Source of the DNA: Nordella sp. HKS 07
GTDB taxonomy: Bacteria; Pseudomonadota; Alphaproteobacteria; Rhizobiales; Aestuariivirgaceae
NCBI RefSeq assembly: GCF_011046735.1
Contig: NZ_CP049258.1
Coordinates: 868,001 to 932,000 of the forward strand
Direction: 5' to 3'
Length of the DNA: 64,000 bases
Position numbers and translations under genes: made by a program. This document shows positions 10,046 to 55,925 of the stretch, in pieces. Under the pieces are notes generated by a model. That model was not told where the DNA came from. It ran no database searches and saw nothing but the letters and a program-made list of their open reading frames with translations. Each line of letters opens with the position of its first letter. Position 1 is the stretch's first letter.

Positions 10046-10092
10046 GATGGACGCCTGCCTATCGCAGGAGTGGGCGTAATAGGAGGCAGGCT

Positions 10093-10578: not shown

Positions 10579-10664
10579 TAACTCCCGCGAACTTCTCAGC
10601 GTCCTGCCGAAGAGGGGGGCGCCGAGCGCCGGCACGGGGGAACCGCAGCCCGGCCGGCACTGCC

Positions 10665-32411: not shown

Positions 32412-32574
32412 CTGGGTGTGATTCCTTGCATTTTGAGCATGACGATGAAGCACGCCACGTTGGCGATAAATTACTTTTCCTATTCCGTCTGGATCGGAAA
32501 ATCTTATTCAACATGCACGCCGCTTCAGCGCCATCTCGTCTAGACTCCGCGATGCCAAACGAAAGGTGAGATTG

Positions 32575-37375: not shown

Positions 37376-38053
37376 ATGACCTTCTCGATCTCCGCCCGCT
37401 GCCGGCGCACCGGCATGTTCGGTATCGCGGTCTCCTCCTCGAGCCCTTGTGTGGCGGCGCGTTGCGCCCATGCCCGCGCCGGCGTCGGCGCCGTCGCCAC
37501 CCAGAATATCACCGACCCGACACTAGGGCCCAAAGGTCTCGATCTGCTCGCCTCGGGCCTCTCGGCGCCTGAGGCTTTGGCGAAGCTCAAGGCGACGGCC
37601 CCTCATCTCGACTACCGCCAACTGGCCCTCGTCGACCGCCAGGGCGGCACCGCCTCCTTCTCCGGAGCGAAGACGCTGGGCACCCACCGCATCAAGGAAG
37701 CGCCCAATGTCGTGGCGGCCGGCAACCTGCTGAAGGATCCGCAGGTGCCCGACCACATGGTCGAGGCCTTTCTCGCCGACGAACAGGCCGCGCTGGGCGA
37801 CCGGCTCATCGCCGCCATGCAGGCTGCCCTCGCCGCGGGCGGCGAGGAAGGCCCGGTCCATTCGGTCGGCATGCTGCTGGTGCGCGACGTCGCCTGGCCG
37901 GTTGCCGATCTGCGCGTCGACTGGCACGAGACCGACCCCATCGGCGAACTGGCAAGACTTTGGGCACTGTGGCAACCGCAGATGGACGCCTATGTGACCC
38001 GCGCCCTCGACCCGTCTACCGCCCCTTCCTATGGGGTTCCCGGCGACCAATAG
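37376..38053 (+). CDS. DUF1028 family protein (putative Ntn-type hydrolase)
   Basis: 225 aa. The N-terminus MTFSISARCRRTGMFGIAVS and GVGAVATQNITDPTLGPKGL are diagnostic of DUF1028, a family with an Ntn-hydrolase-like fold often encoded beside RidA and amidases in nitrogen-compound catabolic operons. The exact reaction is not established. It follows RidA by 12 nt and therefore belongs to the same transcript. Confidence 0.85.
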   Translation: MTFSISARCRRTGMFGIAVSSSSPCVAARCAHARAGVGAVATQNITDPTLGPKGLDLLASGLSAPEALAKLKATAPHLDYRQLALVDRQGGTASFSGAKTLGTHRIKEAPNVVAAGNLLKDPQVPDHMVEAFLADEQAALGDRLIAAMQAALAAGGEEGPVHSVGMLLVRDVAWPVADLRVDWHETDPIGELARLWALWQPQMDAYVTRALDPSTAPSYGVPGDQ

Positions 38054-39165: not shown

Positions 39166-39621
39166 ATGAGCCGAATATTCAGGGCTTTGATCGTCAATGG
39201 CGCCAACACCAATCTCTATGGTGTCGACCCGAGCGGCGTCTATGGCGCCAAGACATTGGCCGACATCGAGGCCGGCTGCCGCGCCGTCACCGCGACACAG
39301 GGCCTCACGCTCGATTTCCGCCAGTCGAATCACGAGGGCCAGCTGATCGACTGGATCCACGCGGCGCGCCAGAGCGAGGACGGCATCATCATCAATGCCG
39401 GCAGCCTGACTTACACATCGATCGGCCTGCTCGACGCCCTTTCCGCCTTCGCCAAGCCGGTCATCGAGGTGCATATGACCAATATCTACCGGCGCGAGCC
39501 GTTCCGGCATCACTCCTTCATCTCCAAGGCGGCGACGGGAATCATTGCAGGGTTAGGTCCTGACGGCTACGAACTGGCTGTCATGGCCATGGCACGGTTG
39601 TTGAAGAGAGAGGCGAAGTGA
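39166..39621 (+). CDS. type II 3-dehydroquinate dehydratase-like protein (divergent active site)
   Basis: 151 aa. Overall AroQ fold pattern: VNGANTNLYG, FRQSNHEGQLIDWIHAA, INAGSLTYTSIG and VIEVHMTNIYRREPFRHHS. Compared with well-known AroQ enzymes the lid-loop Arg (GRREP region) is replaced (GVDPS) and the His of the LTHTS motif is Tyr (LTYTS), while the catalytic Tyr (VYG), the Asn, the EVH His and a later Arg remain. It therefore may not be the shikimate enzyme but a paralogue acting in the catabolic cluster. The stop overlaps the next start (TGATG). Confidence 0.7.
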   Translation: MSRIFRALIVNGANTNLYGVDPSGVYGAKTLADIEAGCRAVTATQGLTLDFRQSNHEGQLIDWIHAARQSEDGIIINAGSLTYTSIGLLDALSAFAKPVIEVHMTNIYRREPFRHHSFISKAATGIIAGLGPDGYELAVMAMARLLKREAK

Positions 39622-40556
39622 TGAAGCGCGAGGCGCTGGTTTTCTATAGTCCAACCGACGATCCAACAGCCTGGCGGGACGCGCTCGCGGCCGAACTGCC
39701 CGACCTCGACTTTCGTCTGAGCGCGCAGCCGGGCGACACGTCCGAGATCCACTACGCCCTCGTCTGGAAGCCACCGACGGGCTTCTTCGCACCCTATCCT
39801 CATCTCAGGCTGGTGACCAATCTCGGCGCCGGCGTCGATGAGATCGTCGGCCGCAATGACCTGCCTGACGTCCCCATCTGCCGCCTGTCCGATCCGGGCA
39901 TGGTCCAGCTCATGACGAGCTATGTGCTCTTCGCCGTCCTGCGCTATGCCCGCGACATTCCCTCCTTCGAGCGCTCCAAGGCGCGCGGCAAATGGGAGTT
40001 CATCCATCCGCGCCCGTTCGCCGAGATCAAGGTTGGCCTTCTGGGGCTCGGCGATCTCGGCGCGGCGGCGGCAACGGCATTGGCCAATCTCGGCTTCACG
40101 GTCTCGGGCTGGAGCCGCACGCAGAAGCAGCTGGCGCATGTGAACTGCGTCTCGGGCGCCGGCGCGCTCGATGGGTTCCTTGCCGCAAATGAGATCCTCG
40201 TCTGCATGCTCCCCTTGACGCCCGAGACGCACGGGCTGCTCGACAAGAGACGGCTCGCACTGCTGCCCGAAGGCGCCAAGCTTATCAATGTCTCACGTGG
40301 CCAGGTCGTCGATGAAGCGGCCATGATCGAGGCCTTGCGCAGCCGCCGCATCGCCGAGGCGACGCTCGATGTCTTCGTCAAGGAGCCGTTGCCGGAAGGC
40401 CATCCGCTTTGGGCGCTCGACAATGTGCTGATCACGCCGCATCTCGCCAGCAACACCACCCCGGCCATCGCGGCGCGTGATGTCGCCGAGAGCATCCGGC
40501 GCATCCGCCGGGGCGAAGAGCCGCTACACCGCGTCGATCCGAAGCGGGGCTACTGA
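39621..40556 (+). CDS. D-2-hydroxyacid dehydrogenase (GhrA-type glyoxylate/hydroxypyruvate reductase)
   Basis: 311 aa NAD(P)-dependent dehydrogenase. The nucleotide motif VGLLGLGDLGAAAATAL lies in the middle, and the catalytic Arg, Glu and His are in INVSRGQVVDE, DVFVKEPLPEGHP and LITPHLAS. The N-terminal part (YALVWKPPTGFFAPYPHLRL) fits GhrA rather than SerA. The ATG at 39621 shares one base with the AroQ-like stop, so the two are translationally coupled. A truncated copy of the last 306 bp occurs at 48198-48503. Confidence 0.85.
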   Translation: MKREALVFYSPTDDPTAWRDALAAELPDLDFRLSAQPGDTSEIHYALVWKPPTGFFAPYPHLRLVTNLGAGVDEIVGRNDLPDVPICRLSDPGMVQLMTSYVLFAVLRYARDIPSFERSKARGKWEFIHPRPFAEIKVGLLGLGDLGAAAATALANLGFTVSGWSRTQKQLAHVNCVSGAGALDGFLAANEILVCMLPLTPETHGLLDKRRLALLPEGAKLINVSRGQVVDEAAMIEALRSRRIAEATLDVFVKEPLPEGHPLWALDNVLITPHLASNTTPAIAARDVAESIRRIRRGEEPLHRVDPKRGY

Positions 40557-40604
40557 GCGCTACCGTCAACCCGGCGAAGGTTGGGGCCAATTAAGTGCTC
40601 TCCA

Positions 40605-40618
40605 CCCGAATATTCGGG
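40605..40618. repeat. perfect 14 bp palindrome
   Basis: CCCGAATATTCGGG lies 50 nt after the hydroxyacid dehydrogenase stop, inside a 380 nt stretch (40557-40935) that holds no gene I can support. It may be an operator or a weak transcript end; no T-run follows. Confidence 0.45.
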
Positions 40619-40935
40619 CGTGGAATCATGAGTCCTGCTCTGAATTTACCTCCGGTTTCGGCGGCATAGCGGACATGACCGGACTTGCGGCCGGCTCGGC
40701 CTGGTCGCGGAAGTCCGTTTCTGCAAGCGGGCTCATCAATGCCGCCCACGCGCTGCGCCGCAAAACTTCTACTTCGTCTGGTTAAATAAGCCTATAAAGT
40801 CAATGTTCCCGCCAACCCTTCGGGAATAGGCAGTGGCTGCCGGCAAAGCAAATGTCCAAGAATCTGTGTCTTCATGGCTCCAGGAAAGTGAAAAGCAAGT
40901 TTGCTTTTTGGGCACTCGTCCGGACTACCACGACC

Positions 40936-41430
40936 ATGAAATACGCTTCTTTCATTGCCGCAGTTGCCAGCATATTGCTCATCTCGCCCGCAGATGCTGC
41001 CTCAGAGAGCTTCTTTGACAACTTGGCGGGAAATTGGACTGGTTCGGGAAAGGCGTATGTCAAAATATACGGTGAAATTTCAGCGAGGTGCCGGGTCTCG
41101 ATAAGGGGGACCGAGGTCGTTATCATCATGAGCGGTAGTTGTGGAATGTTGGTGTTCCGGCAACCTCTTGGATTTTCTCTTCGGAAAGCGGGCAATAACA
41201 GGTATGTCGGAACCTATACGGGCTCCAAGACTGGGCCTGCCAAACTGGAGGGTACCCTTCGCGGCAACCGACTGGTGATGACCATTAGGTGGGGAGGTCT
41301 CGTCAATGGGGACCGCACGGCACAGATGGTGCTTGAACGGACAGGCCCCAATTCCTTCGCCGAGACGGTAAATGACTCTGTAGCCGGAACGAACCGCAAC
41401 ACCGCCAATTTCGCTTTTGTCCGCGAATGA
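40936..41430 (+). CDS. exported protein of unknown function
   Basis: 164 aa from this ATG, with a signal peptide (residues 1-20, FIAAVASILLISPADA). The mature part is beta-rich (NLAGNWTGSGKAYVKIYG, then LEGTLRGNRLVMTIRWGG), like small lipocalin- or avidin-type barrels seen in rhizobial exported proteins, but I do not recognise a named family. The frame begins at 40852; the ATG used here starts the signal peptide. A short AAAAGCAAGTTTGCTTTT palindrome lies upstream (40892-40909). No clear ribosome binding site, so the start is uncertain. Confidence 0.55.
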   Translation: MKYASFIAAVASILLISPADAASESFFDNLAGNWTGSGKAYVKIYGEISARCRVSIRGTEVVIIMSGSCGMLVFRQPLGFSLRKAGNNRYVGTYTGSKTGPAKLEGTLRGNRLVMTIRWGGLVNGDRTAQMVLERTGPNSFAETVNDSVAGTNRNTANFAFVRE

Positions 41431-41446
41431 GAATGCCGCTTCGTCG

Positions 41447-41525
41447 TTCTAGTGTCCCGAATCCGAAGTTCGCCACAGCCAGCGGGACCTTGCGAGTGAA
41501 CTTCGGATTCGGAAGGACATTAGAA
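41447..41525. repeat. MITE-like palindromic element A
   Basis: Arms TTCTAGTGTCC..CGAATCCGAAGTTC and GAACTTCGGATTCGG..GGACATTAGAA pair over about 27 bp with a 2 nt bulge around a 25 nt centre. It contains no reading frame. Confidence 0.7.
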
Positions 41526-41537
41526 AGCTTAATGAAT

Positions 41538-41612
41538 CTAGTGTGCTTTTGAACGCAAGTTCCTGTCGGTGCTGGCCGCCTGATATCAGGAACTTCGCGT
41601 TCAGCACACTAG
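41538..41612. repeat. MITE-like palindromic element B
   Basis: Arms CTAGTGTGCT..TGAACGC AAGTTCCTG and CAGGAACTTCGCGTTCAGCACACTAG pair with a 2 nt bulge. It has the same CTAGTGT terminus as element A and lies 12 nt after it. The final CTAG supplies the stop codon of the oleate hydratase frame (41609-41611). Confidence 0.7.
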
Positions 41613-43178
41613 GGCCCGAGACCTAGAAACACTTTGAAAGCCGCCCACACACCCTTCGGATCGAACTGGCCCTGATAGACGGGCGGCGGCGGAGGGCCAC
41701 GCTTGAGGAGGCGGTAAATGGCCTCCCAGGCGGTGCGAGTTGAGTATTCGAAGGTGAACGCAATGTCTTTCGGAATCTCCACATACTGGCCGATGAGTCC
41801 GAGATTGGTCGCCCCCTCCGGCACTACAGGTGGCCTGTCGCCGTGCCTGCGCACCAGCCAGATGTTGTTCACATAGGGCATGTTGCAGGGAATACAGATC
41901 GATGACTTCATGATCGCGTCCGATTTCTCGAACCGAAGATGGCGCAGCAATTCCCCTAGGATCTCCTCGCCCGTGCATTGATCCATGCGTTTCTTCACGA
42001 AAGTGCCTTGGCGTTCGGGATAGAGCCCATAGCCCCACCAGACAGACGTGCCCTGGGGCTGATCGAGGATTTCCGGCTGGAGGAAGATCGAGACCGACAG
42101 CACCCACCCTGAGTCTTTCAAGGTCAGAAGCCCGCCGCTTCCGGGGTCGCTGCGGGTCAGCCTGGTCATTTGATCGATGAATTCCGTACCCGTCGTGGTG
42201 ACCGTGAATGTCACCCAGCGCGAGTCGACTATGCGGGGGGCGCCGAAGAACGCGTCCGGATTGCCAAAGCCCTTGTGCTCCTCAGCCAGGCGCTTCCACA
42301 GCGCCCAGGACCGCCCGGTGCCCACCGGCTTCGGCGCCGCGGTCATCGATCCCGCCGAAAGGTCAGCCGCCTGCGACCCGGTCGTCAACAGCACGATATC
42401 CTCCGGCGCGACGATGACCGAGGGCCGCGGCGCCCCCACGTTCGTAGTCGAGTCGGTTGACGGTTATCCGGCCGGGCGACGATTCGAAGCCGATGTCCTT
42501 GACGAAAGTGCCGGTCAAGAAGTTCACGCGGCGCGGCTCCAGCCAAGCGACCAGGGGTTTTACGAACGCTTCGTGCTGGTTGAAGGGCGAGCGCAGAACG
42601 TGCGCCATGGTCGAGAGGTCGGGGAACAAGTAGACGAAGCGGTTCATGTAGCGGCGGAATTCGACGACGCTATGCTGAGGTAGCGACCCCATGAGCGTCG
42701 ACCATAACAGCCAAAATTCCGTCTCAAAGAACTTCGGAGAGAAGAACTCCTCTATCCGCCGCCCGTCCAACCACGCTTCGGGCGTGAGCGAGAGCCGCGC
42801 GAGTGCAAAGCCGTCGCTCCAGCTCAACCCGTAACGCGGGCCATGCACGGTACGGAGGTCGCGATCGACGATGTGTGTCTGGTCGTCGAATGGGTGCTCC
42901 CTGTTGAAAGTGAAGAGTTGCTCTTTGACTGAAATCTTGGGGTTGGCTTCCGTGGGAATTGTTGCGAGCAGGTCGAAAGCACAGCGGAATTCCCTATCAA
43001 AAATAGAGCCAGGCAGGTTGTAGCCGCTCTGGGGACTGCCGTCCAAAAAGAACCCGCCGCCCAGCCGCTCATCCGCCTCGTAGATCGTGATGTCCTGCCC
43101 GGCAACGCCTGCATTCCGGATGAGCAACGCCGCCGCCGCCAATCCGCCAAACCCGCCACCGATGAGATGCGCCTTCAT
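41609..43178 (-). pseudogene. oleate hydratase (myosin-cross-reactive antigen family), one frameshift
   Basis: FAD-binding fatty acid hydratase family that adds water to the cis-9 double bond of oleate. The first part (43178 to about 42440) shows AHLIGGGFGGLAAAALLIRN and GGFFLDGSPQSGYNLPGSIF; the second part (about 42439 to 41609) shows APEDIVLLTTGSQAADLSAG, WALWKRLAEEHKGFGNP, MDQCTGEEILGELLRHL, CIPCNMPYVNN and VEIPKDIAFTFEYSTRTAWE. The two lie in different frames; deleting one base of the C5 run at 42433-42437 restores a continuous protein of about 522 aa (ERGAPRPSVIVAPED across the joint). GGAGG precedes the ATG. The stop lies in a palindromic repeat. Either a real disruption or a homopolymer error. 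Confidence 0.85.
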
Positions 43179-43588
43179 CTGCTTCCTCCCTGGAGTCCGG
43201 GTTTCGGAAGTCTTCCCGTTTCCCGCCGACCGACGCACCGCCGACCAATGCCAAATGGGACGCGACACGCTCGTCGAACAAGCAATCTAGCTCAGCAAGG
43301 ACTGTGAAGCATCCGCGCTTCCGCTCAGGGTCAAAAGCCGATTGAACAGGCCTCAGCATGAACATCATGATGCTTCAAATTTTAGGTAATGCTCATTAGA
43401 TCCTTTGACAGGAGCGCCAAACTGGCGTCTTCTGAATTCCGGGACTGGGGTCGCTCGGTCTCCATCTCCCGCATTGATGACTGCGCGAGCAATTCGGCAA
43501 CGCATTCGCCGATTCAATCAATTAGCCCACGCCAATACGACCAAAGCTGATTTCATGCGCTCATTCAACGAGAAGCTAGGAGCGAGCT

Positions 43589-44020
43589 ATGCGCACACTA
43601 TCGATCCTGTCAATCGGAGCCGTCTTATCAGTAAACTCGGCGGCGTTCGCCGGCTCCGAGATGGAACCTCTCAAAATTGCGAAAGAATGCAGTCAGTATT
43701 CCGGAGAGGCGCCAAGCTTCTGCACAGTTACCGAATCGAACGTCGCTGCGATACCCAAGGGATCCAAAATCCTCTACTACGGGCCGGTTACCGGCAGTTC
43801 GTTGTTTACCAGCAGCGCCGTGGTACTTGCGGTCGGGCCTGGAGACTCGGCTGTTGGATATTGCGTCGTCTACGATACCGCCAAGCCACCGCTTGGTCTG
43901 TGCGCATTCCACGCCGGAAGCGGATCTCTCGCCGGATTCCAGGCCATCGCCAAAGTCACAGTTGACGACAAGCAAATCTGGCATTGGGAGGGTGGCTACC
44001 TGCTTGGCAGCGCGAAGTAG
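43589..44020 (+). CDS. exported protein of unknown function
   Basis: 143 aa with a signal peptide (ILSIGAVLSVNSAAFAGS, cleavage near residue 22) and a good AGGAG six bases before the ATG. The mature part has three Cys (ECSQYSGEAPSFCTV, GYCVVYD) and beta-type segments ending in KVTVDDKQIWHWEGGY. I do not recognise the family. It is preceded by 410 nt (43179-43588) without a supportable gene and followed by 619 nt (44021-44639) in which I see no gene. Base composition of this stretch is more AT-rich than the flanks. Confidence 0.6.
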   Translation: MRTLSILSIGAVLSVNSAAFAGSEMEPLKIAKECSQYSGEAPSFCTVTESNVAAIPKGSKILYYGPVTGSSLFTSSAVVLAVGPGDSAVGYCVVYDTAKPPLGLCAFHAGSGSLAGFQAIAKVTVDDKQIWHWEGGYLLGSAK

Positions 44021-44639
44021 ATTAGACCCGCGCCAAGCCGTGCCCTGTGCACCGTCGCCAGGCAAGAGGAGTTGCGCTGCATACGCCCAAAGCGGCACCG
44101 AGACCTGGAGGTACTGGATCGGGTCAGTGAGTAGTTCCGCCATCTGGAATTTCTCGGCTCCGGCTTTTTTAGCAACCTTAGACGACGGGCGGCAGAATTC
44201 GGGGAAGGGAGTGACTTCGATGGGCTGATAGCGAGCCGGGGTTTCCTAGAGTCACGTAGAAGCTAATTGAAAAGGGAATGGTTTTTTGCCTGCTCGCCAA
44301 TGTCCGTTATGGAGTGGATCGCGGACTCAAGTCGGACATTCCGCTACTTCCGGAAAAGGGCCATGTGTGGACGGCTCCGGGCTGTCAAGGTTCTTTTGCA
44401 TGTCGCAGCGCTGGTCGTAGCAGCCATGTGTTCGGCCTTTGAGCGCGGCTCATAGGGCCGCTGGCCATAATGCCTTCCGCGGATCAGGTCCCGGTCAAAA
44501 GCTCGCATTCGACAATGCTGTGGCCCATGTGGGTTGTCCTGATCGCCGGATCGACCGGTTCTGCGTTACCTGCTGTCAGTCCTTTCCAGCCTTCACATCA
44601 CGCCGTTGCCGGCGCGATCTCGTCCAAAGTCGCCGTGCC

Positions 44640-45671
44640 CTAGCGAGCCAGCGCGACGGGTTCCCTGTAACGCTCGCCCTTGGCCATCATCGCCCAGGCC
44701 ATGCGGGCAATCTTGTTGGCGAACGCGATCGCGGCCACCTTTGTCGGCCGCCGCTCCAGCAGCTTGGCAAGCCATGGCCGATGCTTGGTGCCGTGGATTT
44801 TCGCGTATCGGATCACCGCCAACGCGCCAGCACAGAACAGCGAGCGCAGGTATCGATCGCCCTGTTTGGTGATATTGCCAAGCCTCTCCCTGCCTCCACT
44901 GGAGTTCTGCTTCGGCACCAGCCCAATCCAGGCTGAGAAGTCGCGTCCCGAGCGAAACGCCCTCGGATCGGGAATACTGGCGACCAGCGCGGTTGCCAGC
45001 GCCGGACCGACCCCGGGGAGTTCGTCGAGCCGACGGCTGGTCTCGTTTGAGCGATGCCAGGCGTTGATATGCTGGTCGAACGTCAGGATCTGCCGCTTCA
45101 GCTGCCATAGTTGACGGCCCAGTGCCTCCAGGCACTCGCGCGCAATCTCGGGCACGCGTCCATCGTCGGGATCGGCAACCACATCGAGCAGCTTCTCGAC
45201 GCCATTGCGGCCGACTGGTGCGACAATGCCAAACTCGGCAAGGTGGGCGCGGATCGCATTGATCAGCGCAGTCTGCTGGCGAATGAACAGATGCCGCGTA
45301 CGGTGGAGCATCAGACAGGCTTGCTGGTCGGGTGTCTTGGTCGGCACGAACCGCATGCTTGGCCGCTGCACCGCCTCGCAAATGGCCTCGGCATCGGCCG
45401 CATCGTTCTTCTGGCGTTTCACATACGGCTTCACATAGGCCGGCGGCATCAATCGAACCGTGTGCCCGAGTGCCTGCAACTCGCGCGACCAGTGGTGCGA
45501 GGACGCGCATGCCTCGATACCAACCACACAAGGCGAAAGCTTCCTGAAGAAACCGAGAACCCGTGACCGCTTGAGACGCTGGCGAATAACCCCCTGGCCG
45601 TCTGCGTCAATGCCGTGAACCTGGAAAACAGACTTCGCAATGTCGAAACCGATTGTCGTCACCGCTTGCAT
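44640..45671 (-). CDS. IS110 family transposase
   Basis: 343 aa DEDD-type transposase. N-terminal DEDD domain with TTIGFDIAKSVFQVHGIDAD and VVGIEACASSHHWSRELQAL, then KNDAADAEAICEA; C-terminal Transposase_20 domain with LDELPGVGPALATALVASIP and DFSAWIGLVPKQNSSGGRER containing the conserved Ser. Full length, with no stop or frameshift, so possibly active. IS110 elements lack clear inverted repeats, so the ends of the element cannot be fixed from this sequence alone. It sits beside the truncated cyclase/TPR tail and within a group of broken genes. Confidence 0.9.
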   Translation of the reverse strand: MQAVTTIGFDIAKSVFQVHGIDADGQGVIRQRLKRSRVLGFFRKLSPCVVGIEACASSHHWSRELQALGHTVRLMPPAYVKPYVKRQKNDAADAEAICEAVQRPSMRFVPTKTPDQQACLMLHRTRHLFIRQQTALINAIRAHLAEFGIVAPVGRNGVEKLLDVVADPDDGRVPEIARECLEALGRQLWQLKRQILTFDQHINAWHRSNETSRRLDELPGVGPALATALVASIPDPRAFRSGRDFSAWIGLVPKQNSSGGRERLGNITKQGDRYLRSLFCAGALAVIRYAKIHGTKHRPWLAKLLERRPTKVAAIAFANKIARMAWAMMAKGERYREPVALAR

Positions 45672-45799
45672 ATCGAGCTCCTCCGAATCGTGGTCACCTT
45701 TTGGCCACCAATCCTATGGCACTTGCGCACCAGGTGGAGGAGCCGTCCACAGCATCAGAAGCGGACTCCAGCATGCGGCGCTTTCGAGTTCCGACGCAG

Positions 45800-46078
45800 T
45801 TACTCCGGAAGGCCAGCTTTGCGAAGGTCTTCGGCAATCCTGTCGCGCAGCGCCATGTGGCGGTAGGGGTGGAATTCGGTCGTTCGCCCAATCCTGTATT
45901 GAGGGTTTGTCGCCAGATATTGCTTGGCCTCCTCACGTGCTTCCTCCAGGCTGCCAAGCCGCGCCAGGGCGGCCGTCAATACAACCCGGGACTCGTTTTG
46001 ATCTGTGGCATTCCTCAGAGCCTTTGCCGCTACCTCATTCAGACCGGCGGCGTATTGGATCGGCGATTGAAGGACCAT
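45800..46078 (-). pseudogene. C-terminal fragment of an adenylate cyclase/TPR-type protein
   Basis: About 92 residues with a TPR-like pair of helices (VVLTAALARLGSLEEAREEA) and the ending FHPYRHMALRDRIAEDLRKA GLPE, the usual tail of rhizobial class III adenylate cyclases with TPR repeats. No catalytic domain or start signal is present upstream, so this is a remnant, probably cut by rearrangement near the IS110 element. Confidence 0.6.
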
Positions 46079-46126
46079 TCCCAGCAGCGATCATTGTAGC
46101 CTCCTATTTGACTTGTCCCCTTGGCG

Positions 46127-47797
<1,671 letters not shown>

Positions 47798-47981
47798 TCA
47801 TTTTCTACCGATCCAGCCGGCTCGGGGTGCCGGTTGATGTCCGCTTGGCCCAAAAGCGACAGGCTGCGGATAATGCTGCCGGTTGCTCGGGAGCGATCGG
47901 TTAGCTAGTGGCCCATCGAGTCTTTTCGCTGTGCTATCGAGCCGTCCGCCCGGCAGACTAATGGAGTCGGGACGATGGAAT

Positions 47982-48199
47982 TCAGCTCACCAGGTCGAAG
48001 AGGCCTATGCACTCAGCCACAAAAGCCTCAGCACCTGCGCCAAGCTCGGCGCGCGCGGGGCGCGCCAGCATCACCTGGCTCGGCCGCGTCTAATCCGCCA
48101 AGAGCCGCGTCACTAGCGCGTTGCCGTCATAGGACATGGTTGCCACCGGCTTCGTCGACAGAAGGCTGTAGCCGAAGCCCCCCGCGACGAGGCCGCGCG
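47982..48199 (-). pseudogene. truncated copy of the 3' end of a LysR-domain gene
   Basis: About 72 codons aligned without frameshift to the last part of the flavin reductase-LysR fusion gene (49290-49505): LVAGGFGYSLLSTKPVATMS and the closing AECIGLFDLVS. One codon (GAG in the intact gene) is TAG here. The 5' part is missing; the homology stops at 48199, where the hydroxyacid dehydrogenase fragment begins on the other strand. Confidence 0.8.
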
Positions 48200-48503
48200 G
48201 CTCGCATTGCTGCCCGAAGGCGCCAAACTTACCAATGTCTCGCGTGGCCAAGTCGTCGATGAAGCGGTCATGATCGAGGCCTTGCGCAGCGGCCGCATCG
48301 CCGAGGCGACGCTCGATGTCTTCGTCCAGGAGCCCTTGCCGGAAGGCCATCCGCTATGGTCGCTCGACAATGTGCTGATCACGCCGCATCTCGCCAGCAA
48401 CACCACCCCGGCCATCGCGGCGCGCGATGTCGCCGAGAGCATTCGGCGCATCCGCTGGGGCGAACGGCCGCTTCACCACGTCGATCCGAAACGGGGATAT
48501 TGA
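48198..48503 (+). pseudogene. truncated copy of the 3' end of the hydroxyacid dehydrogenase gene
   Basis: 306 bp, aligned without gaps to 40251-40556, ending exactly at the stop codon. Eight of 98 residues differ. It carries the catalytic Arg, Glu and His region but no nucleotide-binding domain. Joined head to head with the LysR fragment. The following 358 nt (48504-48861) hold no supportable gene. Confidence 0.85.
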
Positions 48504-48861
48504 TCGACAACCGGCAAGAACGGCGTTGTGACGGCGTCGCCCCATCCCAGCGAGATGGTTGCACCGCCGGTTATAACTCCCGCCTTCTCCTGACTGAGGC
48601 TCTTGCTGCGCCTGATGCTGGTGCCGCTGTTCGTGGAGGTCGTCAATGAAATCGTCACCAAGCACAGCCGACCAGGGGGCGCCTGCCTAATGCGCAAATG
48701 GTCTGCTTAACTTCTGTGCCGTCCTCGACCGACGATTCAAAATTGTTGTTAAAGAGCGAGTTACAACCTAACATCTGTTCGGTCGAGTCGGAAAGCTCAA
48801 CATTGTCGTTGAGCTGATGATTCGCGCGCGGTGGCATCCGCGCCAGTCACAGGAGGCTAAT

Positions 48862-49188
48862 GTGGCAAAGAAAGCAGCGAAGAGAGCCTTGGTGAGACGT
48901 GCGGTAAAGAGGAAAGCCGTCAAGGGCGCCTTGAAGAGGCGCGCCGTCAAGAAAGCCGTCGTTCGCAAAGCCGTGAAGCGTCGGGCGGTCAAGAAAGCCG
49001 TCGTTCGCAAAGCCGTGAAGCGTCGGGTGGTCAAGAAGGCCATCGCGCGCAAAGCCTTGAAGCGTCGGGCGGTCAAGAAGGCCATTGCGCGCAAAGCCAT
49101 CAAGCGTGCAATCGTCAAGCGGGCGCTCCGGCAAGCGATCGTTGCTCGCGCGCTCAGCGAAACGGGCGGTGGTTCGGGCTCCGAATGA
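48862..49188 (+). CDS. very basic Ala/Lys/Arg/Val repeat protein (histone H1-like)
   Basis: 108 aa starting at a GTG five bases after AGGAGG; an upstream in-frame ATG (48817) has no ribosome binding site. The protein is about half Lys, Arg, Ala and Val and consists largely of a 14-residue repeat VKRRAVKKAVVRKA (four full copies and a partial fifth), ending in an uncharged ALSETGGGSGSE tail. Composition resembles bacterial histone H1-like or AlgP-type C-terminal domains that bind DNA or RNA non-specifically, but here it stands alone without a partner domain. Function inferred from charge only. Confidence 0.6.
   Translation: MAKKAAKRALVRRAVKRKAVKGALKRRAVKKAVVRKAVKRRAVKKAVVRKAVKRRVVKKAIARKALKRRAVKKAIARKAIKRAIVKRALRQAIVARALSETGGGSGSE
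48931..49137 (+). repeat. 42 bp in-frame tandem repeat
   Basis: Units 48931-48972, 48973-49014, 49015-49056, 49057-49098 and a partial 49099-49137, each coding 14 residues. Units 1-2 and units 3-4 are most alike (VV versus IA at the tenth and eleventh residues), suggesting duplication of a pair. Confidence 0.8.
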
Positions 49189-49289
49189 GCTGAATGCGCC
49201 AGTTGCGCCCCGTCACTCCAGACGGGGCGCATGGATCTCGGACGGGTTGCTGATCAATGGCTCCCGACTTTCGGTCGGGATGACCGAAC

Positions 49290-50468
49290 TCAGTTTGCCA
49301 CGCCGAAGAGACCTCTGCACTCCGCCGCGAAAACTTCAGCGCCGGCGCCAAGTTCAGTGTGCGCGCGGCGCGCCAGGACCACCTGGCTCGGCCGTGTCTC
49401 ATCCGCCAGGGGCCGCGTCACCAGCGCGTTGCCGTCATAGGACATGGTTGCCGCCGGTTTCGTCGACAGAAGGCTGTAACCGAAGCCGCCGGCGACGAGG
49501 CTGCGCGCCATCTCGAAGGACGCGGTGCGAAAGCGGATATGGGGCGTAAGCCCCCTCTCGCTGAACAGCGACAAGAAGTATTCCCCGCTCGGCGGCGGCT
49601 CGAGAAGGATCAAGGGCTCGTTTGCCAGCGTCGCCAGCGGCAAGGCGCTCTCCCGCGCCAGCGGATGGTTCTCGGCGAGCAGAACATAGGGTTGAAGTTC
49701 GGTGAGAAGCTCGGTCTCGATCTGGTCGCCCAGATTGAAATCATAGATGAGGGCGAGATCGACATCGCCGGCCTTGATCGCCTCGAGAACGCGCCGGTGG
49801 TCGCCTTCGACCAGCTTGAGATCGATCTGGCGGCCCCGGGCGGCGAGGCGGCTCAGCACCTGCGGCACCACATGCGGGCCGAAAGTATGAAAGGCGCCAA
49901 GCCGGACCGATTCCACGTCTTCCGACTGACCGTCGCGCCGGGTGTCGATGCGCGACGGCGTGCCGTAGGCGCGGTTGGCATAGATCAAGGGTGATCCGCG
50001 ATCGAGGGCGAATATCTCCTCGACGCTGCCGATAATCACATAATGCGTGCCGATTTTCTGCGCCGACAGGATGCGGCAATCGAAGGCGGCCAGCGCGTCG
50101 ACGACGCGCGGCGCACCGGTGGCGAGCGTGGTCCAACTGGTGCAGGAGAATTTATTGCCGTCCGGCGTCTTGAAGCGTCCGGCGAAGCAATCGGAGATGA
50201 AGGACTGGTCGTCGCGCAGCACATTCACGCAGAAGATGCCGTTGTCGATGATCGCCTGCGCCGCCGGGCTCAGATGATGCACACAGACGAGCAGCGTCGG
50301 GCGCGACGTGTCGGCCGAAACCGAGGCCATCGCCGATACGGTGACGCCATGGCGGCCCGCCTGGCCCTCGGTGGTGACGACATTGACCGTGCAGGCGGCA
50401 AGCCCCATGCCATTCAGGAAGCGCTGCCGGAGCGCCGGATCGGGAGAATTATCTGGAGCTTCGGCCAT
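49290..50468 (-). CDS. flavin reductase fused to a LysR-type ligand-binding domain
   Basis: 392 aa, two domains. Residues about 14-168 are an HpaC/RutF-type flavin reductase (AACTVNVVTTEGQAGRHGVT, SRPTLLVCVHHLSPAAQAII, FCVNVLRDDQ, GTHYVIIGSVEEI). Residues about 186-388 are a LysR substrate-binding (type 2 periplasmic-binding fold) domain: GAFHTFGPHVVPQVLSRLAA, DVDLALIYDF, PLILLEPPPSGEYFLSLF, VAGGFGYSLL. There is no HTH. The gene begins 12 nt after an ABC transporter ATPase gene and is last in that operon. By analogy with the reductase of Acinetobacter 4-hydroxyphenylacetate hydroxylase, which has a C-terminal MarR-like regulatory domain, the LysR domain may make flavin reduction depend on the imported substrate. 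A candidate oxygenase partner is the HpaB-type protein at 33254. Confidence 0.85.
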   Translation of the reverse strand: MAEAPDNSPDPALRQRFLNGMGLAACTVNVVTTEGQAGRHGVTVSAMASVSADTSRPTLLVCVHHLSPAAQAIIDNGIFCVNVLRDDQSFISDCFAGRFKTPDGNKFSCTSWTTLATGAPRVVDALAAFDCRILSAQKIGTHYVIIGSVEEIFALDRGSPLIYANRAYGTPSRIDTRRDGQSEDVESVRLGAFHTFGPHVVPQVLSRLAARGRQIDLKLVEGDHRRVLEAIKAGDVDLALIYDFNLGDQIETELLTELQPYVLLAENHPLARESALPLATLANEPLILLEPPPSGEYFLSLFSERGLTPHIRFRTASFEMARSLVAGGFGYSLLSTKPAATMSYDGNALVTRPLADETRPSQVVLARRAHTELGAGAEVFAAECRGLFGVAN

Positions 50469-50480
50469 GGATTACCTCCT

Positions 50481-51623
50481 TCAAGCCGGCAGGATGACGG
50501 CCTCGTCGAGCGCCACCGAGAGCGCGATCTCTGAACCGAGTGGTGCCTGGTCGATCGCCGTTGCCCCCTTGGTGCGCAGTTCGATCAGGCCTATTCCCGC
50601 AACATTGACCCGGGTCTGCGTATGCGTGCCTTGATAGATATGCGCGGCGACATTGCCCTTGATGATATTGGCGCCCACGCTCCGGGGCCCGGCGATCTCG
50701 ATATGCTCCGGCCTGATGAAGATATGGACCATCTGGCCGTCTTTGATTTCCTGGCGCGCCAGCTGCCGGCCGTTCAGGGTAATCTCCGGACAGACCTCGA
50801 AGCGCAAATCCTGGCCCTGCTTCTGGCAGCGCGCTCTAGGCAAGGCGTTGATCTCGCCGATGAAGGAGGCGACAAAGCCGTTGGCCGGCTGGGTGTAGAG
50901 CTCGATCGGCGCCGAGACCTGCTGCACCTCACCGCGATTCATGACTACCACGCGGTCCGACAGGCTGAGCGCCTCGCCCTGATCATGGGTCACGAAGATG
51001 GTGGTGAGGCCGGTCTTCTGATGCAGCTCCTTGAGCTCGACCTGCATCTGCAGACGCAGATTCTTGTCGAGCGCGGAGAGCGGCTCGTCGAGGAGCAGCA
51101 CTTTCGGCCTTATGACGATGGCGCGCGCCAGAGCGATGCGCTGCTGCTGGCCGCCCGAGAGCTGGCGCACCCGCCGCCCCTCCATGCCGGAGAGCTTCAC
51201 CATGTCGAGGGCCCGCTCGACCTCGGCCTGGACCTGCCTGGCCGGCAGTTTTCGCATGCGCAGGCCGAAGGCGATATTGTCGAAGACATTCATATGCGGG
51301 AAGAGCGCATAGCTTTGGAACACCATGCCGGTCTCGCGCATATAGGGCGGAACACTGGAGATGTCCTTGCCGTCGATATGGATGGCGCCCGAGCTCTGCG
51401 TCTCGAAGCCCGCCACCATATTGAGGAGCGTGGTCTTGCCGCAGCCCGAGGGGCCGAGGAGCGTCATGAACTCGCCCTTGCGAATGCTAAGCGAAGCCTT
51501 ATGCACGGCGGTGACATTGGCGAAGGTCTTCGTCACCTCGACGATATCCACCGAATGGCCGCTGTCCCCGCCGGTACCACCTAGCCGGTTGTTCTTATTC
51601 ATGCTGGTCGAGCCACCTGTCAT
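50481..51623 (-). CDS. ABC transporter ATP-binding protein (PotA-like)
   Basis: 380 aa. Walker A GPSGCGKTTLL, signature LSGGQQQRIALARAI, Walker B VLLLDEPLSALD and His switch FVTHDQGEALSLSDR are intact; a C-terminal TOBE-type domain follows. The ATG at 51623 shares one base with the stop of the upstream permease (TGATG), so translation is coupled; a second ATG at 51602 is possible. It energises a polyamine/opine-type importer with the two permeases and solute-binding protein encoded upstream. Confidence 0.95.
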   Translation of the reverse strand: MTGGSTSMNKNNRLGGTGGDSGHSVDIVEVTKTFANVTAVHKASLSIRKGEFMTLLGPSGCGKTTLLNMVAGFETQSSGAIHIDGKDISSVPPYMRETGMVFQSYALFPHMNVFDNIAFGLRMRKLPARQVQAEVERALDMVKLSGMEGRRVRQLSGGQQQRIALARAIVIRPKVLLLDEPLSALDKNLRLQMQVELKELHQKTGLTTIFVTHDQGEALSLSDRVVVMNRGEVQQVSAPIELYTQPANGFVASFIGEINALPRARCQKQGQDLRFEVCPEITLNGRQLARQEIKDGQMVHIFIRPEHIEIAGPRSVGANIIKGNVAAHIYQGTHTQTRVNVAGIGLIELRTKGATAIDQAPLGSEIALSVALDEAVILPA

Positions 51624-52417
51624 CAGTGAGAATCTATCGCGAGGACCTTGCGCAGGCCGAGGAAGTGATTGGCCACCAGCAGTATCAGCATGGTGGAGAT
51701 GATGAGCAGCGCCGAGACCGCGGCGACCGTGGGATCGGTATATTCGCGCATGTAGTTGTACATGGCGACGGGCAGCGTCTGGGTGCGGCTCGCCGTGACA
51801 TAAAGCGAGGCCGAGAATTCGGTGAGCGACAGGATCGCCGCCACCAGCCAGCCGCCGGCCATGCCCGGAATGATGAGGGGTATGGTGATGCGGCTCAGCA
51901 CCATCAAGGGCGAGGCGCCGAGATTGGCGGCGGAGCGCTCGAGATTGGGATCGATATTGAGCAGGCTCACATAGACGGCGCGGGCGACGAAGGGCAGCAC
52001 CAGCACCACATGGGTGATGATGATGATGGTGAGCGTCTGGGTGAGGCTCAATCGCGCCCCGAGCAGCAGGAAGCCGAAGCCCGTGGTGAAATGCGGGATG
52101 ATCAGCGGCGAGGACAGGATACCCTCGAGCAGGCTCTTGCCCGGGAAAGCATAGCGCACGACCAGGAAGGCGAAGGCCGTGCCGACGGCGAGCGCCAGCG
52201 TCGAGGAAATCAAGGCGATGATGAGGCCGGTCTGGAAAGCAGCGCGGAAATCCGGATAAGTGAGCGCCTTCTCATACCAGCGCAGCGAGAAGCCCTCGGG
52301 CGGGAAGGACAGGATCTCGCCCGGATTGAACGATGTCATCACCACGACGATCGCCGGGATCGTCATGTAGAACAGGATGCAGCTGACGACCAGCCAGAAC
52401 AGTGTTTGTCTCCACAT
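51623..52417 (-). CDS. ABC transporter permease (PotC-like)
   Basis: 264 aa, about six membrane helices, with the EAA-type loop SAANLGASPLMVLSRITIPL. The frame continues upstream to 53008, but that section is the shadow of the neighbouring permease gene; the ATG at 52417 begins a normal first membrane helix (WRQTLFWLVVSCILFYMTIP). 17 nt after the other permease gene. Confidence 0.9.
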   Translation of the reverse strand: MWRQTLFWLVVSCILFYMTIPAIVVVMTSFNPGEILSFPPEGFSLRWYEKALTYPDFRAAFQTGLIIALISSTLALAVGTAFAFLVVRYAFPGKSLLEGILSSPLIIPHFTTGFGFLLLGARLSLTQTLTIIIITHVVLVLPFVARAVYVSLLNIDPNLERSAANLGASPLMVLSRITIPLIIPGMAGGWLVAAILSLTEFSASLYVTASRTQTLPVAMYNYMREYTDPTVAAVSALLIISTMLILLVANHFLGLRKVLAIDSH

Positions 52418-52434
52418 GGCTCTCGCGGCTCCCG

Positions 52435-53289
52435 TCAGTGGATCGCCGTCTGCCGCTCGAGGCGGCCGGCGACGAGTTTCATGAGCGCCAAGCTGGCGAA
52501 AGCGCTGATCAGCGCGATCACGCTGAGCGTGGCGGCGAAGGGGAAGTTCAGGGCCGAGAAGCCCTGCAGATAGATGGCGTTGGAGATCATGAGAACCTTG
52601 CCGCCGCCGATGAGCTGCGGGGTGGCGAAGGCGCTCATCGTCCAGGCGAAGATCACAATGAATCCGGAGACGATCCCGGGCATGGTGAGGGGGATGATCA
52701 CGCGCAGGATGACGGTCGCGGGCGGAGCGCCCAGATTGGCGGCGGCCTTCTCGTAATCGGTATTGATATGGCTGATGGCGGTGGCGAGGATGATGATCAT
52801 CACCGGCATGGCGAACTGGACCAGCGCGATGACGACACCGGCGCGCGTATACATGAAGGTGACGGGCTCGGCGATGATGCCGAGATTCATGAGCACCGTA
52901 TTGAGGAAGCCATTGGTGCCGAGCACCAGCATCCACGCATAGGTGCGCACGATCTCGCCGGTGAACAACGGCGTGATCGACAACAGGATGAGGAGCGTTC
53001 TGATCCACTCGACCTTGGTACGCACCAGCGCGAAGGCGATCGGATAGGACAGTATCAGCGTGAAGAAGGCGGTGGCGAGGCTCAGCACGAAGGTATTGAC
53101 GACCGCCATGAAGTAGACCGGCCGGTAGATGCGGGCGAAATTGTCGAGCGTGAAACCGCCGACATCGAGAGAGCCGGGGATGAATTCGCGGAAACTGTAT
53201 TGCAGGATCTCAGCCAGCGCCGCGAGGAAGATGACCGCGACGAGTATGGCCGGAACCAGGAACGGGATGAGGAAGGGGCGCTTGGACAT
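52435..53289 (-). CDS. ABC transporter permease (PotB-like)
   Basis: 284 aa, about six membrane helices (FLVPAILVAVIFLAALAEIL onward) and the EAA loop KAAANLGAPPATVILRVIIPL shortened here to family core. The ATG at 53289 is preferred over the frame-opening codon at 53331, because the latter would place the start inside the intercistronic hairpin. Partner of the PotC-like permease. Confidence 0.9.
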   Translation of the reverse strand: MSKRPFLIPFLVPAILVAVIFLAALAEILQYSFREFIPGSLDVGGFTLDNFARIYRPVYFMAVVNTFVLSLATAFFTLILSYPIAFALVRTKVEWIRTLLILLSITPLFTGEIVRTYAWMLVLGTNGFLNTVLMNLGIIAEPVTFMYTRAGVVIALVQFAMPVMIIILATAISHINTDYEKAAANLGAPPATVILRVIIPLTMPGIVSGFIVIFAWTMSAFATPQLIGGGKVLMISNAIYLQGFSALNFPFAATLSVIALISAFASLALMKLVAGRLERQTAIH

Positions 53290-53301
53290 TGGCAAATGAA
53301 A

Positions 53302-53330
53302 TGGATGGCCCGCTTGCGGCGGGCCATCCA
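53302..53330. promoter_or_regulatory. intercistronic hairpin between solute-binding protein and permease genes
   Basis: Perfect 12 bp stem TGGATGGCCCGC (53302-53313) / GCGGGCCATCCA (53319-53330) with a 5 nt loop and no T-run. In ABC operons such hairpins protect the solute-binding-protein part of the message and lower expression of downstream permeases. Confidence 0.7.
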
Positions 53331-53338
53331 ATGTCCGC

Positions 53339-54364
53339 TTATTGCATCATGTTCTCGGTGAACCACACCTTCCAGGTGGGCAGCAGCTTGGCCTGGACCT
53401 CATCCGGTGTCACGATCGCCTGGGTCGACCACTGCTCCGGCGTGGTGAAGATGCCCGGCAGTTTGGCGAGCTCCGGATCGATCTGGGCATCCTTGTTCAT
53501 GGGCGAGCATTTGTGGAAGTTGCAGATATCGCGCTGCACGATCGGATCGAGCGCGACATTGATGAACTCCTGCGCCGCGTCGAGCTTCTTGGTGCCCTTG
53601 TTGATGCCGAGCGCGCCGATGCCGACGACCGCCCCTTCCTTCGGGATCTCGATGGTGATCGGCACGCCGTTCTGGATCAGGTGATAGGCGTTGATCGACA
53701 GCATGATCTGGACCGGCGTTTCGCCCGTCTTGAGAAGATCCTGGCTGGTCGCGTCCGACTGGTAGAAGGCCTTGATATTGGGCTTGAGCTTTTCGAGCAG
53801 CGGAATGCCGGCTTCCCATGTGGTGGCGTTGCCGCCGGCCAGGATCGCCGATGCGACGATGATGTGGCTCGGATCGAAATCCGGCATCGACAGCTTACCC
53901 GCCACACCTTCCGACCACAGGTCGTTCCACGAGCTGATGCGGAAGTCCTTGGGCATGAGATCGGTGCGGAAGACCGGGCTATAGACATAAGAATAGACGC
54001 CGACTTCATAGTCGCCGCGATCCGCCGCCGGATGCAGGTTGGCGAAATTCGGGATCTTGCTCTTGTCGAGTTTCTCGAAGAGGCCGTCGGACTGATAGAG
54101 ATAGCCGACATGGCTCGTCGTATAGGTCACGTCCGATTCAGGATTGTCCTTGGCGACTTTCGCTTTGGCGAGCCGGTCGAGCGTGCCGCCGGTGATGAAC
54201 TCGACCTCCATCCCGGTGCGCTTTGTGAACTCCTTGGCGATGATGGCGGCGCCGTCCTTCCAATTGCCGCCCCAGACGCTGACAATGAGCTTTTCCTGCG
54301 CCGAAGCGGCGGTGCTGGCGAGGGTGACGACGAGCGCGCCGAGCGCGACCCAAAGCTTCTTCAT
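53339..54364 (-). CDS. ABC transporter substrate-binding protein (PotD-like, family 1)
   Basis: 341 aa periplasmic binding protein. Signal peptide KKLWVALGALVVTLASTAAS A, mature part starting QEKLIVSVWGGNWKDG. The SDVTYTTSHVGYLYQSDGLF, SSWNDLWSEGVAGKLSMPDF and FHKCSPMNKDAQ segments are typical of spermidine/putrescine-type binding proteins. The ATG at 54364 is preceded by AGGGAG; the frame-opening codon at 54418 is not supported. First intact gene of the import operon; a closely similar but frameshifted copy lies directly upstream. Confidence 0.9.
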   Translation of the reverse strand: MKKLWVALGALVVTLASTAASAQEKLIVSVWGGNWKDGAAIIAKEFTKRTGMEVEFITGGTLDRLAKAKVAKDNPESDVTYTTSHVGYLYQSDGLFEKLDKSKIPNFANLHPAADRGDYEVGVYSYVYSPVFRTDLMPKDFRISSWNDLWSEGVAGKLSMPDFDPSHIIVASAILAGGNATTWEAGIPLLEKLKPNIKAFYQSDATSQDLLKTGETPVQIMLSINAYHLIQNGVPITIEIPKEGAVVGIGALGINKGTKKLDAAQEFINVALDPIVQRDICNFHKCSPMNKDAQIDPELAKLPGIFTTPEQWSTQAIVTPDEVQAKLLPTWKVWFTENMMQ

Positions 54365-54587
54365 CTGGACATTTCTCCCTGTTTGTTTGGCGTTTTCTAT
54401 ATTGACCCTGCGTAGCAACGCCTGCTTGAGGATCGGGACAATCTTACGGACAGGACTAAATCAGAGAATTATTATTTTTTGTTGGTCTGCTTCCAATGTT
54501 CCTAAGCAGAAGGCCACTCGCCAAAAACAAATGCGCCAGGCCGTTGCCGGCCTGGCGCATCCGCAAAGAAAGTCCGAAAAACGCCGC

Positions 54588-55612
54588 CTACTGCATCATG
54601 TTCTCGGTGAACCAGGCCTTCCAGGTCGGCAGCAGCTTGGCGCGGACCTCATCCGGCGTGGTGATCGCCTGTGTCGACCATTGTTCGGGGGTCGTGAAGA
54701 TGCCGGGCAGCTTGGCGATTTCCGGATCAATCTTCGCGTCCTTGTGCATCGGCGAGCATTTATGGAAGTTGCAGAGCTGCCGCTGGATTTCCGGATCGAG
54801 CGCGACATTGATGAATTCCTGCGCCGCATCAGGTTTCTTGGTGCCCTTGTTGATGCCGAGCACGTCGATGCCGACGACAGCCCCCTCTTTCGGAATGGCG
54901 ATTGTGACCGGCACGCCATTGGCGATCAGGTGATAGGCATTGATCGACAGCATGACCTGGACCGGGGTTTCACCCGACTTGAGCAGATCCTGGCTCGTCG
55001 CGTCCGACTGGTAGAAGGCTTTTACGCCGGGCTTGAGCTTCTCGAGCAGCGGAATGCCGACTTCCCAGTTCGCCGCGGCACCCCCGGCGAGCACCGCGGA
55101 AGCGATGATGATATGGCTCGGATCGAAGTCGGGCAGCGACAGCTTGCCCGCCACTTCCGACGACCACAGATCGTTCCACGAGCTGATGCTGAAGTCCTTG
55201 GGCATGAGATCGGCGCGGTAGACCGGACTGTAAACGTAAGAATAGATGCCGACTTCATAATCGCCGCGATCGGCAACCTGGTGCAGACCGGCGAAGTTGG
55301 AGATCTTGCCCTTGTCGAGCATCTCAAACAGGTCGTCGGCCTGATAGAGGAAACCGACCTGGCTCGTGGTGAAGACCACGTCCGATTCCGGATTGTCCTT
55401 GGCGACCTTCGCCTTGGTGAGACGGTCGAGCGTTCCCCCGGTAATGAATTCGACCTCCATGCCGGTGCGCTTGGTGAATTCCTTGGCGATGATGCCGGCG
55501 CCTTCCTTCCAGTTGCCGCCCCAGATGCTGACGACAAGCTTCTCTTGCGCCGATGCGCCGTGCCGGCGAGCATAAGGACCATCGCGCCGAGCGCGATCCG
55601 AACTCTTTTCAT
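54588..55612 (-). pseudogene. second PotD-like substrate-binding protein, frameshifted at the signal peptide
   Basis: Tandem paralogue of the next gene, with most residues identical (EKLVVSIWGGNWKEG, SSWNDLWSSEVAGKLSLPDF). GGAGGAAA precedes the ATG at 55612, from which MKRVRIALGAMVLMLAGTA is read; one base is missing around 55555-55562, so the frame then turns into HRRKRSLSS. The mature domain (ASAQEKLVV onward) is open in another frame without a ribosome binding site. One inserted base would restore the protein. Either a pseudogene or a sequencing error. Confidence 0.8.
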
Positions 55613-55925
55613 GCAGTCGTTTCCTCCGTTTATATGACTTCTTGCTCTCGATCACGGCGGTCGCCGCGATCCATTTTTTTGACCGCGCAAGAGTCTGTCC
55701 GAAACGGCAGGCAAGGTAACTATTATTTTCCGTTCATCTGGTTCTGATGTTCCAAAGCAACACGGACCTAGCGGGGCACCTGGCACCGTCCCGATCCTCG
55801 CCAGCCTCGGGCGTGACCTGAGACTTGCTCACGACACCTGCGCACAATAATGTGCACGATATGATTGTACCATTGCCGCAAAACACCAGCGTCATCCTCA
55901 AACGCGACACTGCTACGCTGCCGAC

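Follow-up and report, generated by a model that had tools for sequence, protein, structure and literature searches.

A flavin reductase fused to a LysR effector-binding domain and its association with HpaB-type monooxygenase clusters

Gene content of the locus

The window, a 64,000-nucleotide stretch of the Nordella sp. HKS 07 genome, contains on its minus strand a gene (positions 49290 to 50468) that is a single open reading frame (ORF) of 392 amino acids (aa) with an ATG start and no internal stops. Its product comprises a flavin reductase (residues ~14 to 170), a linker of ~14 residues (171 to 184), and a LysR effector-binding domain (185 to 388) without a helix-turn-helix (HTH). The gene is the last of a minus-strand operon encoding two tandem, related ABC solute-binding proteins (protein 2, 54588 to 55655, and protein 1, 53339 to 54418), a PotB-like permease (52435 to 53331), a PotC-like permease (51623 to 52480, start approximate; PF00528; order conserved in L011 and L012, the loci of two close relatives), and a PotA-like ATPase (50481 to 51623), which lies upstream of the fusion gene across a gap of 12 nt (50469 to 50480). 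This last place in an ABC import operon, 12-nt gap included, had been read from the sequence in the original prediction and is borne out. The two solute-binding genes (53339 to 55655) appear to be a duplication, present also in L011 and L012; at the DNA level, they cross-match each other's L012 counterparts at 82 to 83%.

Elsewhere in the window (32.5 to 40.6 kb), the plus strand carries a cluster with an HpaB-type two-component flavin monooxygenase (33266 to 34705, start approximate; PF11794, 1.3e-81; PF03241, 2.2e-53), the presumed partner of the fused protein. It is preceded by a HutD-family protein (32566 to 33189) and followed by an M20/ArgE-like deacylase (34718 to 35905), a quinone oxidoreductase-like ORF named by eye and conserved in L011 and L012 (35890 to 36900), a RidA-family protein (36944 to 37363), a DUF1028 protein (37376 to 38053), a full-length LysR regulator of the C-type with HTH_1 and LysR_substrate domains (38149 to 39105), a DHquinase II-like enzyme (39166 to 39621), and a D-2-hydroxyacid dehydrogenase-like enzyme (39618 to 40556). 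The regulator at 38149 thus sits in an HpaB cluster, with HpaB at about 33266 to 34705, just as had been predicted. L011 and L012 show the cluster in the order HutD, HpaB, ArgE-like, quinone oxidoreductase-like, RidA, DUF1028, LysR, DHquinase-like, and dehydrogenase, and there the 3' end of the fusion gene lies 2 nt from that of the dehydrogenase gene. In the window, a segment of ~8.7 kb (40559 to 49289) lies between the HpaB cluster and the fusion; apart from two fragments, it was not found at the corresponding position of L012. Cluster and fusion operon thus give the impression of a single unit that has been pulled apart.

The segment itself contains an IS110-type transposase-like ORF (44640 to 45671, judged by eye) and, at 47996 to 48503, the 3' ends of the fusion and dehydrogenase genes for a second time, with their usual order lost. 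It also contains an ORF of glycosyl hydrolase family 1 (46544 to 47779) that matches profile positions 3 to 297 of 453 and is therefore probably truncated.

Domain architecture of the fused protein

Pfam searches with the fused protein recovered Flavin_Reduct (PF01613) at residues 24 to 170 (7e-31; 107.9 bits against a cut-off of 27) over profile positions 4 to 151 of 153, which places it in that superfamily, and LysR_substrate (PF03466) at residues 185 to 386 (2e-40; 138.8 bits against a cut-off of 28) over profile positions 5 to 206 of 209. No HTH family, PF00126 included, was found in the 392 aa at E <= 0.001; since PF00126 is absent and residues 24 to 170 are a reductase, we do not file the protein as a LysR-type transcriptional regulator. 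The predicted combination of a reductase with a LysR substrate-binding domain lacking an HTH is hence confirmed on one continuous ORF.

For residues 14 to 169, the best NCBIfam matches are RutF (4e-37) and HpaC (7e-31), single-domain models of 154 to 156 positions whose motifs the fused protein shares and to which it adds the LysR domain. The scores stay below the equivalog cut-offs of both HpaC (TIGR02296, 107.4 of 205.95 bits) and RutF (TIGR03615, 127.5 of 254.75 bits), and NF045919, the model for the Acinetobacter-type reductase, gives 50.7 bits against a cut-off of 340 and covers the reductase half only. The reductase motifs are intact and conserved in an alignment, and by these motifs we predict the protein to be an NAD(P)H:flavin reductase.

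In structure modeling, which had been proposed together with the original prediction, the LysR part came nearest in fold to the regulator HinK, at low TM-scores (see below), and the reductase half is too weak for the contacts between the domains to be read from the model. The AlphaFold model has a mean pLDDT of 52.5, low because the alignment had 7 rows, with residues 1 to 183 and 314 to 346 below 50 and the rest of the LysR part mostly at 60 to 90. Three scans of viral contigs for relatives that could deepen the alignment found none.

Distribution of the fusion

The same fusion is present in Rhizobiales bacterium Y(2018), at 92% identity over residues 1 to 390, and in Aestuariivirga sp. YIM B02566, at 91% over the same residues, and further fused homologs were recovered from the same family and from other families of the order and class. 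The family sample gave a match at E <= 1e-50 in 8 of 69 genomes, of which seven have the fusion and the eighth has its match split between two contig ends (G038); in the order sample, scored with up to five candidates per genome, 18 of 347 matched at E <= 1e-45, and both domains were covered in 12. Two fused proteins besides that of the window's own genome were found in the class sample (13 of 385 matching at E <= 1e-40), and the fused ones in the phylum sample (19 of 398 at E <= 1e-38) were all already known. Among 72,556 plasmid records, seven match 80% or more of the query at a single place: four from Paracoccus, one each from Sinorhizobium and Aminobacter, and a distant Rhizobium protein (six of the records were opened). 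In plasmid records, such proteins already bear the label LysR substrate-binding domain-containing, so the sequences themselves are known.

Twenty-five fused proteins, the window's included, were entered in trees; left out were L091 and L092 (same places as L011 and L012), H3 (Paracoccus ferrooxidans), G038, and, as short copies of longer loci, L014-L031, L045, L046, L050, L054, and L059. Below, we distinguish a main clade of 20 fused loci, to which the window belongs, a subclade of four (L042 and L086-L088; 41 to 44% identity to the window protein), and a lone protein of Rhizobium leguminosarum WSM2304 (L043).

That an assembly or annotation artefact has joined two genes is an extremely remote prospect: nothing in its favor was found, and it is refuted by independent genomes and complete plasmid records that carry the same continuous gene. 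Misassembly and split homologs were rejected on these grounds. The original prediction had named homologs always encoded as two separate genes as a finding that would speak against it and had called for a search of the PF01613 plus PF03466 architecture together with its neighbors; the relatives carry one continuous fused gene, and such genes recur, usually near HpaB. Genome comparison confirms that the architecture is real and not a product of chance.

Association with HpaB and with importers

HpaB lies within the fetched span (~6 to 31 kb, some contigs being short) of 19 of the 20 main-clade fused loci and is the next gene to the fusion in eight (L075, L077-L080, L085, L089, and L090). With cluster-type HpaB defined at E <= 1e-150, a threshold reached in 41 of the 347 order genomes, it is present in 9 of 9 main-clade fused genomes versus 32 of 338 others (Fisher, 1.9e-9); adding the three subclade genomes gives HpaB in 9 of 12 fused order genomes (Fisher, 3.3e-7), both p values serving as guides only because the genomes are related and kinship was uncorrected. 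Hence, a lack of co-occurrence with flavin monooxygenases, which would have counted against the original prediction, is not what the genomes display.

The single main-clade exception is L076 (genome G145), in which ten neighboring ORFs were scanned and contain no flavin monooxygenase family. G145 has an HpaB-RidA-DUF1028 cluster (L160) on another contig than the fused reductase; it keeps a free HinK-type LysR, and no reductase was found in its fetched span. With a fusion that lacks a neighboring monooxygenase and an HpaB cluster that lacks a reductase, a partnership in trans is possible in this genome. The association does not hold in reverse, as there are many HpaB clusters without a fusion: the HpaB locus was inspected in 22 of the 32 HpaB-positive nonfused order genomes (G078, G153, G219, and 19 others), and the fusion is there in none. 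One genome of the window's own genus (G055; L141) has the HpaB cluster, with an HpaB 90% identical, and neither fusion nor reductase was detected in its fetched span. As far as genome sequences can speak, then, the fusion, its conservation, and its partnership with HpaB are established; that the fused reductase serves the HpaB of its cluster appears probable from this neighborhood.

The predicted coupling to an importer stands in part. The fusion is downstream of same-strand ABC importer genes in 6 of the 20 main-clade loci: a PotA-like gene directly precedes it in the window, L011, and L012, and a branched-chain-type (Liv) importer set lies ~0.3 kb before it in L081-L083. Importer permease genes occur within the fetched span of 13 of the 20 (these six, L038-L041, L084, L085, and L089). 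The importer families differ between fused loci, so that the importer alone does not name the ligand.

Origin of the sensor domain

For comparison with clusters that lack the fusion, we compiled 28 unfused HpaB loci, namely, the 22 order loci, the HpaB locus of G145, plasmid L044, and L099, L103, L104, and L110 from the class and phylum samples; L102 (a 3.4-kb contig on which HpaB is cut) and L094 and L096 (no HpaB seen in the span) were kept outside this set. An unfused reductase is present in 20 of them and a RidA-fused reductase in one (L099), with no reductase seen in seven. A free HinK-type LysR occurs in 13 of the 28, or in 11 of 26 without L110 and L103, which had been fetched for LysR and for reductase plus LysR matches, respectively; a C-type LysR occurs in 12 and neither in three. 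The HinK-type gene is divergent from HpaB or the reductase in 12 of the 13. Within the spans of the 20 main-clade fused loci, there is no HinK-type LysR, a C-type LysR is found in 12, and no other LysR is seen in eight, some of these contigs being short. One of the 13 HinK-type loci is L160; G145 therefore has the fusion and a free HinK-type regulator in different places, which speaks against a simple replacement of regulator by fusion.

The window LysR domain is 36 to 44% identical to HinK-type and 31 to 38% to C-type regulators by BLAST. The original prediction had pointed to a resemblance with the regulator at 38149; the shared motifs are there, but at 32% identity this regulator is not the closest kin. 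A derivation of the sensor from the 38149 regulator was likewise considered and is not supported, as C-type regulators form a separate clade in the tree. In this LysR-domain tree, which left out L043, L006, L007, and the regulator of L012, the main-clade fused domains unite in a single clade (20 rows; support 97/100) apart from the C-type regulators; no definite sister group emerges for it, and HinK is not grouped with it. A single origin for the 24 domains of main clade and subclade is compatible with the data but not demonstrated by them (AU p 0.626). Sequence comparison and the tree support the claim of a transcription-factor origin, in that the sensor domain descends from LysR regulators.

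The nearest solved relative of residues 187 to 389 is HinK (PDB codes 6m5f and 3fzv; E about 1e-34 by sequence), with which the fused domain has the motifs YF.SLF and GFG.SLL in common. In a Foldseek search with the model, the top eight hits are all 3fzv or 6m5f, at low TM-scores (0.38 to 0.53), a result that does not inform on the reductase. Where HinK, which controls transcription, carries its DNA-binding domain, the fusion has a reductase. According to a review (PMC8231116), this LysR regulator of histamine catabolism responds to imidazole-4-acetate and not to histamine, its affinity for imidazole-4-acetate is weak (1.56 mM), and mutant studies put the ligand between the two lobes. That HinK and the fused protein might share a ligand is a candidate reading.

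Conservation of the fused domains

In 11 pairs, dN/dS is 0.05 to 0.39 for the LysR part and 0.01 to 0.11 for the reductase, which points to purifying selection on both, and the LysR part evolves faster in all 11. The 20 main-clade fused domains and the 13 HpaB-adjacent regulators have T195, E221, Y242, Y297, F298, and R322 without exception, and E319 occurs in every one of the 20 fused domains and in 92% of the regulators; several of these seven positions we take, from LysR structures, to line the effector cleft. The subclade keeps T195 and E221 and differs at 222, 225, 242, 293-294, 297-298, and 319, suggesting that it probably binds another ligand.

These observations bear on the idea of the LysR domain as a passive passenger of gene fusion. 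Its faster evolution, the unfused relatives in the same kind of cluster, and a lone reductase that pairs with a fused row and has no LysR trace in its locus (L100; see below) would suit such an idea; we nevertheless regard it as quite improbable, since dN/dS is below 0.4 in 11 of 11 pairs, the fusion persists in several families and in no fewer than two orders, and the invariant positions are maintained.

Proposed function of the fused protein

A precedent, and the closest known system, is the reductase C1 (AbHpaC) of Acinetobacter baumannii p-hydroxyphenylacetate 3-hydroxylase (HPAH), in which, according to a review (PMC10816480), binding of 4-HPA to a MarR domain relieves self-inhibition. 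The analogy to this MarR-domain reductase, drawn in the original prediction, is supported by that review. Both proteins combine a flavin reductase with a C-terminal ligand-binding domain of a type taken from a transcription-factor family in the context of a two-component flavin monooxygenase; the domain is of the LysR effector type in the fused protein and MarR in C1. By its sequence, the fusion resembles C1 in its C-terminal domain of transcription-factor origin and in an HpaB encoded nearby in 19 of 20 loci, and it departs from C1 in lacking the MarR type and NF045919 membership. The Acinetobacter reductase is, moreover, described as FMN dependent and its system as set apart from the FAD-dependent HpaB/HpaC type in a second review (PMC6165268).

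By analogy with C1, the best reading, to which we give somewhat better than even credence, is that of a ligand-gated reductase relieved from low activity by a pathway ligand. The fused protein would act as the NAD(P)H:flavin oxidoreductase in a two-component monooxygenase, with the HpaB of the same cluster as the oxygenase. The LysR effector-binding domain would take up a pathway substrate or early intermediate in its interlobe cleft; when free of ligand, it would hold the reductase in a low-activity state. Ligand would relieve this inhibition, which would confine NADH consumption and the release of reduced flavin to times when HpaB has substrate. We infer that the ligand is a substrate or intermediate of the HpaB pathway; both the gating and its sign, activation, would follow the Acinetobacter example, and it is because that reductase is relieved by its ligand that relief of inhibition is taken as most likely. 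An imidazole compound is only a lead as to the ligand; an N-heterocycle would agree with the presence of HutD and RidA in the cluster. The two full-length domains in one ORF, their recurrence in relatives, the HpaB partnership, the absence of HinK-type regulators from the spans of fused loci, the purifying selection, the invariant positions, the intact reductase motifs, and the C1 precedent favor gating by ligand. The faster evolution of the LysR part, the close unfused relatives (L093), the HpaB clusters without a fusion, the presence of both fusion and free regulator in G145, the subclade without a close HpaB and with differences at many of the invariant positions, and five label changes in the reductase tree (see below) weigh against it.

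The gating could have the opposite sign, with a downstream product binding the LysR domain and shutting off flavin reduction as feedback inhibition. HinK, which according to the review cited above answers to the pathway intermediate imidazole-4-acetate and not to histamine, would be in keeping with this, as would the retention of positions common to HpaB-adjacent regulators; the one characterized reductase of such a layout that was found is, however, reported to be substrate activated, and we consider feedback inhibition unlikely. We judge it unlikely to the same degree that the LysR domain is a protein-interaction module that pairs with the cluster's full-length LysR regulator or with HpaB and, without ligand gating, ties flavin supply to transcription or docks the reductase on the oxygenase. 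LysR effector domains dimerize, and a full C-type LysR lies in the span of 12 of the 20 main-clade fused loci, as such a module would have it; yet the invariant positions are shared with HpaB-adjacent regulators, the fused domains and C-type regulators form separate clades (31 to 38% identity to the window domain), and eight of the 20 loci, some on short contigs, have no other LysR in the fetched span.

If gating by ligand is real, it would show how two-component monooxygenases avoid NADH waste and peroxide formation and would offer a ready design for a ligand-switched flavin supply; the sensor would also let the ligand of the recurrent HpaB-RidA-DUF1028 cluster be sought by a simple NADH assay. 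Among the literature matches listed, taken at the level of titles and abstract openings, neither the reductase-LysR architecture nor a LysR sensor half switching an enzyme directly is described; for DUF1028 and the HpaB-RidA-DUF1028 cluster, no literature was found in a search outside which most subscription papers fall.

Other C-terminal domains and related fusions

Copies of the reductase also occur alone or with a different partner. L093 encodes an unfused reductase, 73% identical, without a LysR domain, and in L094, L096, and L099 (also L033 and L035), a RidA domain (PF01042) replaces LysR on the same reductase family. L099 stands beside HpaB and DUF1028 and L094 beside DUF1028; here, the C-terminal RidA is presumably a pathway enzyme and not a sensor. 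The RidA-fused reductases occur in three genomes (G266, G191, and G428), whose partial LysR matches, to residue 225 or 235, had been candidates for truncated sensors until Pfam showed RidA instead. Nine loci with unfused or RidA-fused copies were searched for remnants of a lost LysR domain: there are none in L093, L094, L096, L098, L100, and L101, and the matches in L095, L097, and L099 belong to LysR genes that the clusters themselves contain. On the reductase tree, five changes of the LysR-fused label are required; the lone reductase L100 pairs with a fused row (100/99), and the RidA-fused L094 falls among fused rows, which implies more than one event of domain loss, replacement, or gain.

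The protein of L043 (positions 9959 to 11083) has both domains at 24% identity to the window protein, forms very long branches in both trees, and adjoins a luciferase-like monooxygenase; a search of 297 order genomes, a sample without a positive control, returned no relative at E <= 1e-50. This one record is probably a separate reductase-LysR fusion. We offer the following generalization tentatively, at a little less than even confidence: LysR effector domains would have been recruited, probably at least twice (in the HpaB-linked clade and in L043), as direct allosteric switches of flavin reductases, the transcription-factor sensor of a pathway having become its enzyme-level throttle.

In the four subclade loci, a glutamine-synthetase-like gene and an APC-type permease gene flank the fusion, and the cluster also encodes an acyl-CoA-dehydrogenase-fold protein and a further flavin reductase; HpaB was not found in their fetched spans, nor was a close HpaB in the three subclade genomes searched. 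In L107, an unfused reductase comes after peptidase, acyl-CoA-dehydrogenase-like, hydrolase, and glutamine-synthetase-like genes. L042, L086-L088, and L107 have in common glutamine synthetase-like, M29 peptidase, and acyl-CoA-dehydrogenase-fold genes, joined by a cupin gene in the first four, and this conserved cluster would encode a catabolic pathway.
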